Below, in pieces: positions 23,926-46,240 of a DNA stretch of 64,000 nt. Every line of letters starts with the position of its first letter. The first letter of the stretch is position 1. Origin of the DNA: Aquaticitalea lipolytica. Lineage in GTDB: Bacteria > Bacteroidota > Bacteroidia > Flavobacteriales > Flavobacteriaceae. The translations under genes were made by a program, and so were the position numbers. Below the pieces are notes generated by a model. The model made no database searches. It was not told the DNA's origin and saw only the letters and a program-made list of their open reading frames with translations. The stretch covers positions 1 through 64,000 of the forward strand of contig NZ_BMIC01000003.1 in assembly GCF_014641635.1 (NCBI RefSeq), given 5' to 3'.

Positions 23926-25683
23926 CTAATTTTTCTTTTTGGTAGTTATTATTATAACACCATCTTTTGCTTTTTTGCCATGTTTTTCTATTGCTTGTGT
24001 GCCTTTTAAAACATTAACACTTTCAATAGTATCTGGATTAATGGCATCCATTTCTTCTTTCGTTATTTCCTTTCCGTTTAGGAGGATTAATGGACTTTCG
24101 TCTTTACCAGTAAACACTTGAACTTTTTTGTCCTTTTTTTCAACAAATATAACTTCAACATCTTCATCCTTATCACTTGTCCAATTCACTTTATTCTTTT
24201 CTTTTTTTAGCCAAATAGTATCTTTACTTTGCTTGCCATCTTTATCTTTCTTGATAAAAATAATATCTTTTTTGTCATTATCATCTAACTCAATAATAGT
24301 TTCTTTGTCGTCATCAGAAGTAAAATGAAGCTTTTTTATCTTGTGTTTTTTCTCTTCTTTGCCATCTTTCATAATAATTATTTTTTCTTCAATAATTTCG
24401 CCTTCATCATTATCATCGCTAGAAAACACAAAAACATTACTGCCATTACCTGAAGATTGTATTTTATGGTTTCCATCTTCTGTTGTAAAAACATAGCCTT
24501 TTACATTATTTAAGCCAATTGTATTAATTGAGACATTATTATTTTCTTCATCAATTATTATGCTTATTGGCTTTATAGGATTATCTGTTGAAATTTGAAA
24601 ATTGGTGTTAGTCTCATCTGAACTTATTTCAATTTTTATTGAAGTAATTTCACCTTTATCATTACGCTTAATACCTTTAAATTTAGATTCAAAACCTTTG
24701 CTTTTAAGTTCATTTTTTAGATTGTCAATATCAGCATCAGTAAAATCTTTAGTAATAACTAAGTCTTTGAGTAATGAAGAATTAGATTTAAAATTTAAAT
24801 GTTCTGTAGAAGGATTATTTTCTGAAAGATTTTTTTTAACAAGTACTTCTTTAGTATTAAAGCTCATCATAAATAGCGCAATAGCAGGAAGAATTAAAGT
24901 ATACTTCCATGCATTAAATTTTTTAGATTTTGATTTGTGTAACATAACGATTCGTTTTTTGATTAATGAATTATAGAAATTATTTGTAAGCATCAATTGA
25001 TGATGCGGAATACTAGCTTTAAGGAGTAGTTTTTGATAGCTTTTTTCGCAATCTGATTGGTTTTGAGCAGTTTGATCTGCTATAAATTCTAAATTTTGTT
25101 GAAGCTCCTTTTTATACAACCATACAAATGGGTTAAACCAAAACAGAGTAGTTGCTATATGTGAAAGTAACATATCAATACTATGAAACTGATTTGCATG
25201 TACTTGCTCGTGCTTAATGATAAGTGTTAACTCTTCATCGCTAAATTGATTAGGGTTGTAAACAATCCAATTAAAAAATGAAAAAGGAGGTATATCTTTA
25301 TGTGTTTCAACAAATATGTATTTTCCACTTGTGTATTTTTCATGCGAACTAACTAATTGAAGTAAAGAGAAAAATTGAATGAATAGTCGTCCAAAAAAGA
25401 AAATAACACCAGCGTAATAAGTCCATAATAATAGCTGGAACCAATCAAAGGGATTCTCTATAGTTTGTGCTACAATAGAGTCTGTCATAATAATGCCTTC
25501 GAAAGTTTGAGGCGAATATTCTATGTATATTGGAATAACTATTGTTGGGATAATTGATGCAACAACTAATCCGAGTAATAAAAACCAACGATTAGTTGCG
25601 AAAAATGTCTCACGTTGTAATAATAACTTATAGCATACGTAAAATATAACAACAATAGCACTTGCTTTTAATAGATAGTCCAT
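23926..25683 (-). CDS. BlaR1/MecR1-like M56 membrane metallopeptidase
   Basis: A 585-residue sensor. The first ~300 residues hold four membrane helices (about 5-25, 35-55, 80-105, 265-285) and the zinc-peptidase motif HEQVH at residues 158-162, as in the M56 family that cleaves BlaI-type repressors. Residues ~300-520 are highly charged (repeated DDNDKKDI, KKDKDGKQSK-like stretches) and replace the beta-lactam-binding domain of BlaR1. The last ~60 residues (ILLNGKEITKEEMDAINPDT to DGVIIITTKKKN) resemble a TonB-receptor plug, a known tail in Bacteroidota M56 proteins. Pairs with the BlaI-like gene 2 bases upstream. The signal sensed is unknown. Confidence 0.88.
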   Translation of the reverse strand: MDYLLKASAIVVIFYVCYKLLLQRETFFATNRWFLLLGLVVASIIPTIVIPIYIEYSPQTFEGIIMTDSIVAQTIENPFDWFQLLLWTYYAGVIFFFGRLFIQFFSLLQLVSSHEKYTSGKYIFVETHKDIPPFSFFNWIVYNPNQFSDEELTLIIKHEQVHANQFHSIDMLLSHIATTLFWFNPFVWLYKKELQQNLEFIADQTAQNQSDCEKSYQKLLLKASIPHHQLMLTNNFYNSLIKKRIVMLHKSKSKKFNAWKYTLILPAIALFMMSFNTKEVLVKKNLSENNPSTEHLNFKSNSSLLKDLVITKDFTDADIDNLKNELKSKGFESKFKGIKRNDKGEITSIKIEISSDETNTNFQISTDNPIKPISIIIDEENNNVSINTIGLNNVKGYVFTTEDGNHKIQSSGNGSNVFVFSSDDNDEGEIIEEKIIIMKDGKEEKKHKIKKLHFTSDDDKETIIELDDNDKKDIIFIKKDKDGKQSKDTIWLKKEKNKVNWTSDKDEDVEVIFVEKKDKKVQVFTGKDESPLILLNGKEITKEEMDAINPDTIESVNVLKGTQAIEKHGKKAKDGVIIITTKKKN

Positions 25684-43329: not shown

Positions 43330-44079
43330 TTACTTTACTATAACCAGATGCTTAACTTTATCAAGGTTCCAATCAATAACCAATCCACTAGCTAAACTTT
43401 TAGCAATGTCTTTCCCATAAAGATATTCACATAAATACAAAGCGGCTTCAAAGCTTTTTGCTCCACCAGCTGAAGTAATATATTTTCCATCATGTACAAA
43501 AAGAACATCTTTTCTAATGTCTAAATCTGGAAACATTTCTCGCATAGCATCTATATCACTTGGAAAAGTTGTAGATACTGCATCATTAAGTAAACCAGCT
43601 TTAGCTAATACAAAAGCACCATCACAATGCGAAGTTACAAATAGAGCTTCTTTATCTACTTTTTTAATAAAATTTAGCATTATATCATCTTTTAAATCAG
43701 TATCTAAATGATGTTTGGCACTTGGTACAACCAAGATATCAATTTTTGGCAGCGAATCATTTACATAATTAAAATCTGGAATGATTCGCATACCTTCAAA
43801 AGTTGTAATTGCATTATCTGTATTAGCAACTGTAAACACATTCATTGGTTTAATACTATCTCTAAAAATAGTATGTTGAAAAATATCGAAAGGCGCTGTT
43901 AACTCTGTGTTGTATGTGCCATCCATAATTAAAAATGCAACATTATAACGATTAGGTTCTAGCTTTGGCAATACCTTTTCTGTTTTTAACTCAACAATTT
44001 TTTCGTCTTTCTTTTCAAAAGAATTACAGCTTATAAATAACAAAGCATATAGTATATATATTATATTTTTCATAATCAT
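43330..44079 (-). CDS. DJ-1/PfpI-family lipoprotein
   Basis: A 249-residue protein with a lipobox (LLFISCNSF) and a DJ-1/PfpI domain of the type found in AraC-like GATase1 regulators. The nucleophile elbow is FVTSHCDGAFVLAKAGLL, with Cys near residue 152, and ITSAGGAKSFEAALYL follows. No DNA-binding domain is attached, so it is an envelope protein with possible hydrolase or chaperone activity. Seven bases separate it from the upstream MFS exporter gene, so both probably share a transcript. The ATG two codons later is an alternative start. Confidence 0.83.
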   Translation of the reverse strand: MIMKNIIYILYALLFISCNSFEKKDEKIVELKTEKVLPKLEPNRYNVAFLIMDGTYNTELTAPFDIFQHTIFRDSIKPMNVFTVANTDNAITTFEGMRIIPDFNYVNDSLPKIDILVVPSAKHHLDTDLKDDIMLNFIKKVDKEALFVTSHCDGAFVLAKAGLLNDAVSTTFPSDIDAMREMFPDLDIRKDVLFVHDGKYITSAGGAKSFEAALYLCEYLYGKDIAKSLASGLVIDWNLDKVKHLVIVK

Positions 44080-44086
44080 TTTTTAA

Positions 44087-45319
44087 TTATTGAGCCTCAC
44101 TATTAGATTTCATGAATTTTTTAAGAAGGATTAATAAAACTAATCCAATACACCCTAAAATAACCATTAAAATCCATGTATTATCAAAACCAAGACTATC
44201 AATCATTTGAAAACCGAGATTATGTGCAAATACATGAGAAATTGAAAATGCAATACTATATAAGGCCATGTATTCTCCTTGAAGCCCTCGTTTAGATCGC
44301 TTTAAAGAAAATGCATTTGAAAATGGAAATACAATCATCTCACCAAAAGTGACAATTATCATACTAACTACTATTAAAACAATTAATGTGTTATACATTA
44401 AAAACAAGTAGCTCACAGTAGTTAATAATAAACCAAAAATCATTAAACCAACTTTTGTATATCCTTTCTGTTCCAGCCACTTTATGAGTGGCATCTCAAA
44501 TACAAAAATTAGAATACCATTTAAGGCCATTAATAATCCGATTTCAAATTCTGATAAACCAACGCCCTCTTTATAAAAGTAAGGAAGTGTTGATAGAAAT
44601 TGTAAGAAGACAACGCCAAAAATTACCATGGCAAAGAAAAATATCAAAAATGGTTTGTCTTTATATGCAGATTTAGGATTAGGATTAATCTCCATATCTA
44701 ATATTTTTACCTTTTTAGGATGCAAAACATTAAGCAATACAATAGCTGCAATCATACAAGTAATGCCATCTACCCAAAATAGGCCTCCATAACTCATAGT
44801 TGTAATAATTAATCCTCCAATAGCAGGACCAGCAGAAAAACCTAGGTTTATAGCTAAACGAATTAAGGTCACACTTCGAGTTTTATTTTCGTGTTTACTA
44901 TAAGCACTTAATGCAACAAACATAGCAGGTCTAAACATGTCTGCAACTGTCATAAGTATAAAAATACCAATACAAATACTTGTAAAAGTGTTTAAAAACT
45001 GAAAGCCAATAAATAAAAGTCCACTTAATAAAAGGCTAAAAATCATTACTTTATAATAGCCAATCATGTCTGTAAGCTTACCGCCAATCCATGAGCCTGC
45101 TATAGAGCCTAATCCAAAAGCAGTCATAATCCAAGCAACATCATCTAAAGAGAACTCTAGATTTGTAGTTAAATACGGAGACAAAAATGGGATAACCATT
45201 GTGCCAGCTCTGTTAATAAGTGTTACAAGTGCAAGCCACCAAACTTCTTTAGATAATCCTCTAAATGTATTTATGTAGCCATGACCTAAATTGTAGTATA
45301 AATAATTAAAAAGTTTCAT
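44087..45319 (-). CDS. MFS exporter (DHA1 drug-efflux type)
   Basis: A 410-residue, 12-helix transporter of the DHA1 multidrug family: an N-terminal cytoplasmic stretch, GSWIGGKLTDMIGYYKVMIF as motif A between helices 2 and 3, and RLAINLGFSAGPAIGG as the antiporter motif C. It probably exports drugs or small metabolites with proton antiport. Its leader contains a short peptide gene and a terminator/antiterminator arrangement ending 25 bases before the start codon, as seen for ribosome-sensing antibiotic efflux genes. The DJ-1 gene follows. Confidence 0.9.
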   Translation of the reverse strand: MKLFNYLYYNLGHGYINTFRGLSKEVWWLALVTLINRAGTMVIPFLSPYLTTNLEFSLDDVAWIMTAFGLGSIAGSWIGGKLTDMIGYYKVMIFSLLLSGLLFIGFQFLNTFTSICIGIFILMTVADMFRPAMFVALSAYSKHENKTRSVTLIRLAINLGFSAGPAIGGLIITTMSYGGLFWVDGITCMIAAIVLLNVLHPKKVKILDMEINPNPKSAYKDKPFLIFFFAMVIFGVVFLQFLSTLPYFYKEGVGLSEFEIGLLMALNGILIFVFEMPLIKWLEQKGYTKVGLMIFGLLLTTVSYLFLMYNTLIVLIVVSMIIVTFGEMIVFPFSNAFSLKRSKRGLQGEYMALYSIAFSISHVFAHNLGFQMIDSLGFDNTWILMVILGCIGLVLLILLKKFMKSNSEAQ

Positions 45320-45334
45320 TTTTGATTTATTAGT

Positions 45335-45437
45335 ATAAAAATAAAAAGTCCAACATCAATGTTGGACTTTTATATATAGTATTATTAAATATTTACATCG
45401 TCATAATATATAATGTGTCCAACTCTTAGTGTAAGAG
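45335..45437 (-). promoter_or_regulatory. Transcription attenuator before the MFS exporter
   Basis: On the minus strand: AGGTA/TACCT stem (45450-45436); CTCTTA-cac-TAAGAG stem (45437-45423); GTTGGAC (45423-45417), complementary to GTCCAAC at 45367-45361; and a 13-bp terminator AAAAGTCCAACAT/ATGTTGGACTTTT (45371-45344) with a U-rich tail. GTTGGAC can pair with the terminator's first half, and is itself inside the leader-peptide frame, so a ribosome position decides the outcome. This is a classic anti-antiterminator, antiterminator, terminator set. Confidence 0.7.
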
Positions 45438-45475
45438 GTATATTGTACCTTATTAATTCTGACGTTGTTACACAT
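45401..45475 (-). CDS. Leader peptide of the MFS attenuator (24 residues)
   Basis: ATG at 45475, TGA at 45401, encoding MCNNVRINKVQY followed by TSYTKSWTHYIL. A TAGCTTTG promoter box lies on the minus strand at 45504-45497, so the peptide starts close to the mRNA 5' end. Its last codons cover the antiterminator word. The peptide has no recognisable function of its own; Lys, Arg, Tyr and Trp codons near the end could be stalling points. Reality depends on the attenuator model. Confidence 0.55.
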   Translation of the reverse strand: MCNNVRINKVQYTSYTKSWTHYIL

Positions 45476-45554
45476 TGTTTTTTGTATTTTGAAACTCAAA
45501 GCTAAATAAAATAATTGGAAGTTGTATTTTTGAATTGAAAAAAAATAAAAATGA

Positions 45555-45603
45555 AACATCCATAACTATTTTTTTATGCATAGTAAATGATAATATGGAT
45601 GTT
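45555..45603. repeat. Inverted repeat AACATCCAT / ATGGATGTT
   Basis: AACATCCAT (45555-45563) and ATGGATGTT (45595-45603), perfect over 9 bp, lie just upstream of the DUF1684 gene. It could be a leader hairpin or an operator. No other copy was noticed. Confidence 0.45.
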
Positions 45604-45637
45604 CCATCTGACCATAAAAAACAATAAATATTAACAG

Positions 45638-46240
45638 ATGAAACAAATTATAATTCTCTTATTATTTATTTCAGCCTTAAGTTGCGGACAAAGTAAGCAG
45701 CCTATTTTGGGTGAAACTGAATTTCAACGTGAAATAAATTCAGAATATAAAGATGCTTCTAAATCGCCATTAAAGGAAAAGGATAGAGAGAAGTTTAAAG
45801 GATTAGATTTTTTTAAATTTGATTCTGTTTATGTGGTTACTGCCAAATTTGTGAGGACTGTCGATGAGCAACCTTTTAAAATGAAGACAACTACTGATAG
45901 ACTTCCTGAATATGTAAAATACGGAGAATTGATTTTTGATTTGAAGGGAAAACCATTCAAATTAAATATCTATCAAAACCAAGATTTAATTAAAAAAGAA
46001 GGCTTTGAAGACTACTTGTTTTTGCCTTTTTTAGATAATACAAATGGAGAAGAAAGTTATGGTGGAGGACGCTATATAGATATGCGAATTCCTGATGGAG
46101 ATACAATAATTGTTGATTTTAATTCTGCATATAATCCATATTGTGCCTATAACGAAAAGTATTCTTGCCCAATTGTACCAAGAGAAAACTATTTAGATAC
46201 TGAAGTAAGAGCAGGAGTAAAGGCTTTTAAAAAGCATTAA
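45638..46240 (+). CDS. DUF1684 lipoprotein-like protein
   Basis: A 200-residue protein with a lipobox-like ALSCGQSK. The DUF1684 signature is complete: GEESYGGGRYIDMRIPDGDT, FNSAYNPYCAYNEKYSCP and the final ENYLDTEVRAGVKAF. The conserved Asp, Asn, Cys and Tyr residues suggest a small enzyme or metal site, but function is unknown. It overlaps the convergent crcB gene by four bases. Confidence 0.88.
   Translation: MKQIIILLLFISALSCGQSKQPILGETEFQREINSEYKDASKSPLKEKDREKFKGLDFFKFDSVYVVTAKFVRTVDEQPFKMKTTTDRLPEYVKYGELIFDLKGKPFKLNIYQNQDLIKKEGFEDYLFLPFLDNTNGEESYGGGRYIDMRIPDGDTIIVDFNSAYNPYCAYNEKYSCPIVPRENYLDTEVRAGVKAFKKH

Follow-up and report, generated by a model that had tools for sequence, protein, structure and literature searches.

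The expression of one major facilitator superfamily (MFS) exporter in Aquaticitalea lipolytica and other Flavobacteriaceae is probably governed by a ribosome-mediated transcription attenuator, whose usual trigger would be antibiotics that inhibit translation. The leader lies in a 64-kb stretch of the A. lipolytica genome (positions 1 to 64,000 of contig NZ_BMIC01000003.1; hereafter, the window), where a short frame behind a promoter is followed by an intrinsic terminator and carries an antiterminator strand that covaries with this terminator and pairs with it in a mutually exclusive manner. The attenuator is strongly supported by covariation and by the conservation of its parts and of the frame, and folding simulations predict a coherent dependence on ribosome position. 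Our best reading is that the leader belongs to a conserved attenuator family, mediated by ribosomes and hitherto undescribed.

Architecture of the leader

The elements in the window, in order of transcription, are as follows.

45497 to 45504, minus strand: promoter box TAGCTTTG, a Bacteroidetes-type -7 box (TAnnTTTG)
45401 to 45475, minus strand: upstream open reading frame (uORF) encoding the leader peptide MCNNVRINKVQYTSYTKSWTHYIL, 24 codons, ATG at 45475 and TGA at 45401
45460 to 45464, minus strand: P1 5' arm, CGTCA, within the early uORF codons; covaries with the 3' arm
45423 to 45437, minus strand: P2 hairpin, CTCTTA-CAC-TAAGAG, within the uORF; its arms covary
45417 to 45423, minus strand: antiterminator strand, GTTGGAC, which pairs with the terminator 5' arm
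45399 to 45403, minus strand: P1 3' arm, TGACG, which includes the uORF stop codon; covaries with the 5' arm
45344 to 45371, minus strand: intrinsic terminator, AAAAGTCCAACA-TTGA-TGTTGGACTTTT, 12-bp stem with a U-rich tail
44087 to 45319, minus strand: MFS exporter P0001, 410 amino acids, DHA1-type, NorA/LmrP-like

When checked against the sequence of the window, every element that a preliminary description of this DNA had placed on the minus strand was found where it had been put. In the terminator, GTCCAAC (45367 to 45361) is the stretch of the 5' arm complementary to the antiterminator strand; the stem is 12 bp long and has a U-rich tail, and the distance to the exporter ATG (45319) is 24 nt. 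P1, a long-range helix that includes the stop codon, was absent from that earlier list. The leader RNA folds better than its dinucleotide shuffles (z = -2.9). A box, a frame of 12 to 40 codons, and a terminator at such spacings occur together once in the 64-kb window, both strands considered, and the same combination was found 0 times in block shuffles of the window; the architecture is far beyond chance.

The exporter and its locus

P0001 matches the Pfam family MFS_1 (8.9e-46) and is present as a single copy in its genome, and against NCBIfam it falls under every cutoff for named exporters. The closest solved sequence is that of NorA, and NorA, LmrP, YajR, and MdfA are among the folds closest to its AlphaFold model (pLDDT, 84.5), so that the predicted MFS fold is closest to those of the DHA1 multidrug exporters. 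The stretch LGFSAGPAIGG resembles motif C, the antiporter motif of drug exporters. In 80 orthologous loci (best-segment identity, 61 to 90%), a divergent lipoprotein-like gene accompanies the exporter in 77, and a plasmid search returned no close copies and thus no sign of mobility. Being syntenic and having no close plasmid copy, the exporter locus looks intrinsic rather than acquired.

Two further features of the locus were observed. A DJ-1/PfpI-like gene (43330 to 44079, same strand) begins 7 nt past the exporter and would share its promoter; such a gene is found near the exporter in just 17 of the 80 orthologous loci. Between the promoters of the exporter and of the divergent lipoprotein-like gene at 45638 lies an inverted repeat, ATGAAACATCCATA / TATGGATGTTCCAT (45551 to 45607), which is possibly an operator.

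Covariation of the helices

A terminator lies upstream of the exporter in 79 of the 80 orthologous loci, usually in the form AAAAGTCCRAC...GTYGGACTTTT and about 20 to 260 nt from the exporter start, and 75 of these 79 orthologues also have the short frame. The distance from the uORF ATG to GTYGG ranges from 49 to 64 nt, with its phase unchanged in 58 of 60 cases. The promoter box is also regular: of 109 leaders, 99 have TAnnTTTG no more than 60 nt from the uORF ATG, where shuffling would predict 3.4, and the box nearly always lies 25 to 31 nt before this ATG.

P1, P2, the antiterminator, and the terminator covary across 111 distinct leaders (108 for P2). On alignment A1, compensatory changes were seen in 9 of the 10 consensus pairs of the terminator. 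For the antiterminator, 91.6% of the cells are paired, falling to 51 to 52% when one strand is slid by one column; the corresponding values for P1 are 82.5% and 25 to 27%. Cells of P1 that changed on both sides number 37, versus 16 in shuffles, and 7 of its 9 aligned pairs show such changes. RNAalifold recovered the terminator alone from A1, because P1 and P2 are alternatives to the antiterminator and because indels leave P2 misaligned; given this limitation, we relied instead on counts for named structures and on own-versus-swapped tests, in which each leader's own arms are compared with arms exchanged between species over 20,000 permutations. Uncorrected for phylogeny, these tests gave z values of 9.1 for the antiterminator, 7.3 for P1, and 11.4 for P2 (6.6, 3.3, and 7.3, respectively, in a divergent subset of 33 leaders, or 32 for P2), and for all three helices 0 of the 20,000 permutations equaled the observed value. 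Both strands have been altered together in several lineages, divergent leaders having, for example, TCCGGC/GCCGGA (L116) or GTCCGGT/ACCGGAT (L135). The preliminary description had held that a lack of conserved or covarying stems in orthologues would count against attenuation; in the alignment, the stems covary and the short frame is conserved.

Ribosome position and the proposed mechanism

Since P1 spans the antiterminator strand, the two cannot coexist as nested helices, and which of them forms is predicted to depend on the ribosome. We folded transcripts ending at the terminator loop with a simulated ribosome footprint and averaged the results. The mean probability of the antiterminator was 0.87 to 0.91 with the ribosome at codons 1 to 12 and then fell to 0.58 at codon 14, 0.07 at codon 16, and 0.01 at codons 18 to 20; with the ribosome at the stop codon, it was 0.15. 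A ribosome at or before codon 12 is thus predicted to favor the antiterminator and one beyond it the terminator. In free RNA, before the terminator has been made, P1 forms with a probability of 0.74. At equilibrium, however, ribosome-free RNA favors the antiterminator (0.75), which counts against a terminating state, so that termination in the absence of a ribosome rests on a kinetic argument of folding order.

We infer from the sequence that the leader frame is translated and that ribosomes stall on it. Transcription would begin just upstream of a frame of about 22 to 28 codons. A ribosome that reaches the stop codon would cover the antiterminator strand, allowing the 12-bp terminator to form and transcription to stop before the exporter. 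Without a ribosome, P1 (codons 4 to 8 with the stop codon region) would fold first and enclose the antiterminator strand within the P1 loop, so that transcription would likewise terminate. A ribosome stalled within about the first 12 codons would instead break P1 and free the antiterminator strand, which could then capture the terminator 5' arm and let the exporter be transcribed. The usual cause of the stall, by analogy, would be antibiotics that inhibit translation and that the pump exports or that signal a need for it.

What would stall the ribosome

Several features suggest that the early part of the leader peptide matters, since codons 2 to 12 show a modest excess of synonymous changes (30 of 73, versus 21.4 expected; z = 2.45) and since the composition of codons 2 to 14 departs from that of shuffles, with Asp, Glu, Gly, Ala, Leu, Phe, and Pro avoided. 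The remaining codons show no such excess (20 of 86, versus 21.3 expected). Within the close group, the peptide approximates MRxxVTIYRKQWTS...WAxYILW. Its sequence diverges between clades, so that no universal stall motif is visible across the leaders. Threonine followed by Ser, Thr, or Ala at codons 13 and 14 was considered as a universal drug stall motif and rejected; it is common in the close group, yet it overlaps P2, and divergent leaders have not kept it.

A stall could also arise from scarce charged tRNA, the same attenuator then serving an MFS protein that exports or balances an amino acid. Codons for Thr, Ile, Lys, and Val do occur among codons 2 to 14 of more than 100 of the 111 leaders, and a Lrp/AsnC-type gene is found near the exporter in 56 of the 80 orthologous loci. 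We nevertheless regard amino acid sensing as unlikely, in that the transporter resembles multidrug exporters and the leader has neither the codon run nor the excess of a single residue seen in attenuators of the his or trp type: the longest run of one residue is 1 or 2 in 105 of 111 leaders, and no residue occurs more than 4 times in codons 2 to 14 of any of the 111. The same genome offers a direct comparison.

About 197480 to 197509 of contig C2 (genome G000), minus strand: classical his attenuator L212, with leader MNFIQLHHHHFHICSQAN, an intrinsic terminator, and hisG

This mechanism type therefore occurs in the host, and its leader holds HHHHFH before hisG; the absence of any such run from the exporter leader argues against an amino acid sensor. 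Alternatively, the uORF and hairpins might act as a constitutive partial terminator that sets a low basal level and answers to no physiological signal. Regulation is, admittedly, a prediction from sequence; a tuning terminator, however, could do without a conserved frame and without a covarying antiterminator or P1, all of which have been kept, and we find this reading quite improbable. The conserved RNA helices, and a C-terminal half of the frame that appears to be constrained as RNA rather than as peptide, would suit a translation-independent switch, with a metabolite or protein binding the leader RNA and the frame being incidental. Such a switch strikes us as very improbable given that the start, stop, and phase of the frame are conserved, that the stop codon lies within an arm of P1, at the point where a ribosome finishing the frame would act, that the loops lack aptamer-like conservation, and that the Rfam covariance models for riboswitches, T-boxes, and the listed leaders gave no match to the leader. 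Finally, a leader frame and alternative hairpins ahead of a resistance-like gene recall the translation attenuation of erm, cat, and cmlA, where a hairpin hides the start codon; this is hardly credible here, because the predicted fold leaves the start region of the exporter unpaired and because the 3' hairpin, followed by a U-rich tail, is a terminator separated from the start by a distance that varies widely between orthologues. For a drug-responsive attenuator, the signal would most likely be a translation inhibitor, because the exporter is a relative of the DHA1-type multidrug exporters and because of the known systems vmlR, msrD, and toiL.

Distribution among the Flavobacteriaceae and beyond

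A covariance model (R1) built from the orthologous leaders was searched against 199 Flavobacteriaceae genomes and matched leaders in 75 of them (E ≤ 3.3e-6); the exporter itself is present at E < 1e-90 in 112 of the 199. The leader is tied to the MFS exporter gene, for 55 of the 56 strong leaders examined sit before it, as do all 26 of the weaker matches examined (L112 to L137; 41 to 71% protein identity), many of which have altered terminators. The frame, antiterminator, and P1 are retained over a range of 41 to 90% exporter protein identity. One strong leader with a uORF (L108; genome G124, contig C4, about 25120 to 25263) occupies the syntenic place with the exporter absent; its terminator is mismatched (GTCCGAG...GTCGGAC), and it is a relic of the attenuator after exporter loss.

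A wider regulon, as might be read from weak R1 matches (below about 47 bits), was unsupported by the examples examined. Among the 13 examined with the weakest scores (L139 to L151), 12 are terminators of unrelated genes and 1 (L146) precedes the same MFS gene; the sole 50-bit match not before the exporter (L138) lies at the end of another gene. Six exporter homologues of one genus (L159 to L162, L164, and L165; genus g128) are without such a leader. Genome G243 (contig C1), which belongs to this genus, carries four exporter homologues with 33 to 50% identity.

Outside the Flavobacteriaceae, comparable arrangements were recognized by eye at L157, L182, and L185. The latter two, from other families of the class, have a short frame, a complementary strand, and a terminator ahead of an exporter homologue, an arrangement that suggests either transfer or greater age.

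Relation to known systems

Leader frames control the drug exporters of bmrB-bmrCD (B. subtilis), cmlA, and mefA; the latter two are MFS exporters, and cmlA is regulated by translation attenuation. None of these leaders is related in sequence to the exporter leader, and none comes from the Bacteroidetes. In the vmlR leader of Bacillus subtilis (PMC9226507) and the msrD leader (PMC10314930), ribosome-targeting drugs control an antibiotic resistance gene and attenuation is involved. The exporter leader would likewise place a resistance-type gene under leader control, with a putative inducer; vmlR and msrD, however, encode ABC-F proteins of Firmicutes, whereas the exporter leader precedes an MFS gene of Flavobacteriaceae and is unrelated in sequence. 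On the toiL uORF of Escherichia coli (PMC12121999), stalls at many codons, caused by several drug classes, switch the gene. Both toiL and the exporter leader have long-range pairing along the whole uORF, but the former works on the ribosome-binding site and Rho and the latter on an intrinsic terminator. The his operon attenuator resembles the exporter leader in its order of frame, intrinsic terminator, and structural gene but differs in having a run of His codons and an amino acid signal. Amino acid leader attenuators have been described in Flavobacterium psychrophilum (PMC9723704), and the 5' untranslated regions of Bacteroides contain unvalidated short frames (PMC7366714). The preliminary description knew of no such system for this exporter family in the Flavobacteriaceae, and we likewise found no published description of the exporter leader in the open-access literature.

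A broader proposal, toward which we are tentative and somewhat more doubtful than convinced, is that an ancestral attenuator of the Flavobacteriaceae responds to a ribosome stalled anywhere within the first dozen codons, thereby sensing several classes of natural translation inhibitor and inducing an intrinsic exporter, while the peptide drifts and the RNA logic (P1, P2, antiterminator, and terminator) is kept.

To our knowledge, most known cases of inducible resistance under a leader peptide come from the Firmicutes, Actinobacteria, and Proteobacteria. The strong covariation makes the proposed RNA switch testable through simple compensatory mutations, and the leader would be a ready reporter for the natural translation inhibitors met by marine flavobacteria. 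If the attenuator is real, a dominant marine family would possess such control in syntenic, vertically inherited form, and intrinsic drug-inducible efflux would be old in the Bacteroidetes.
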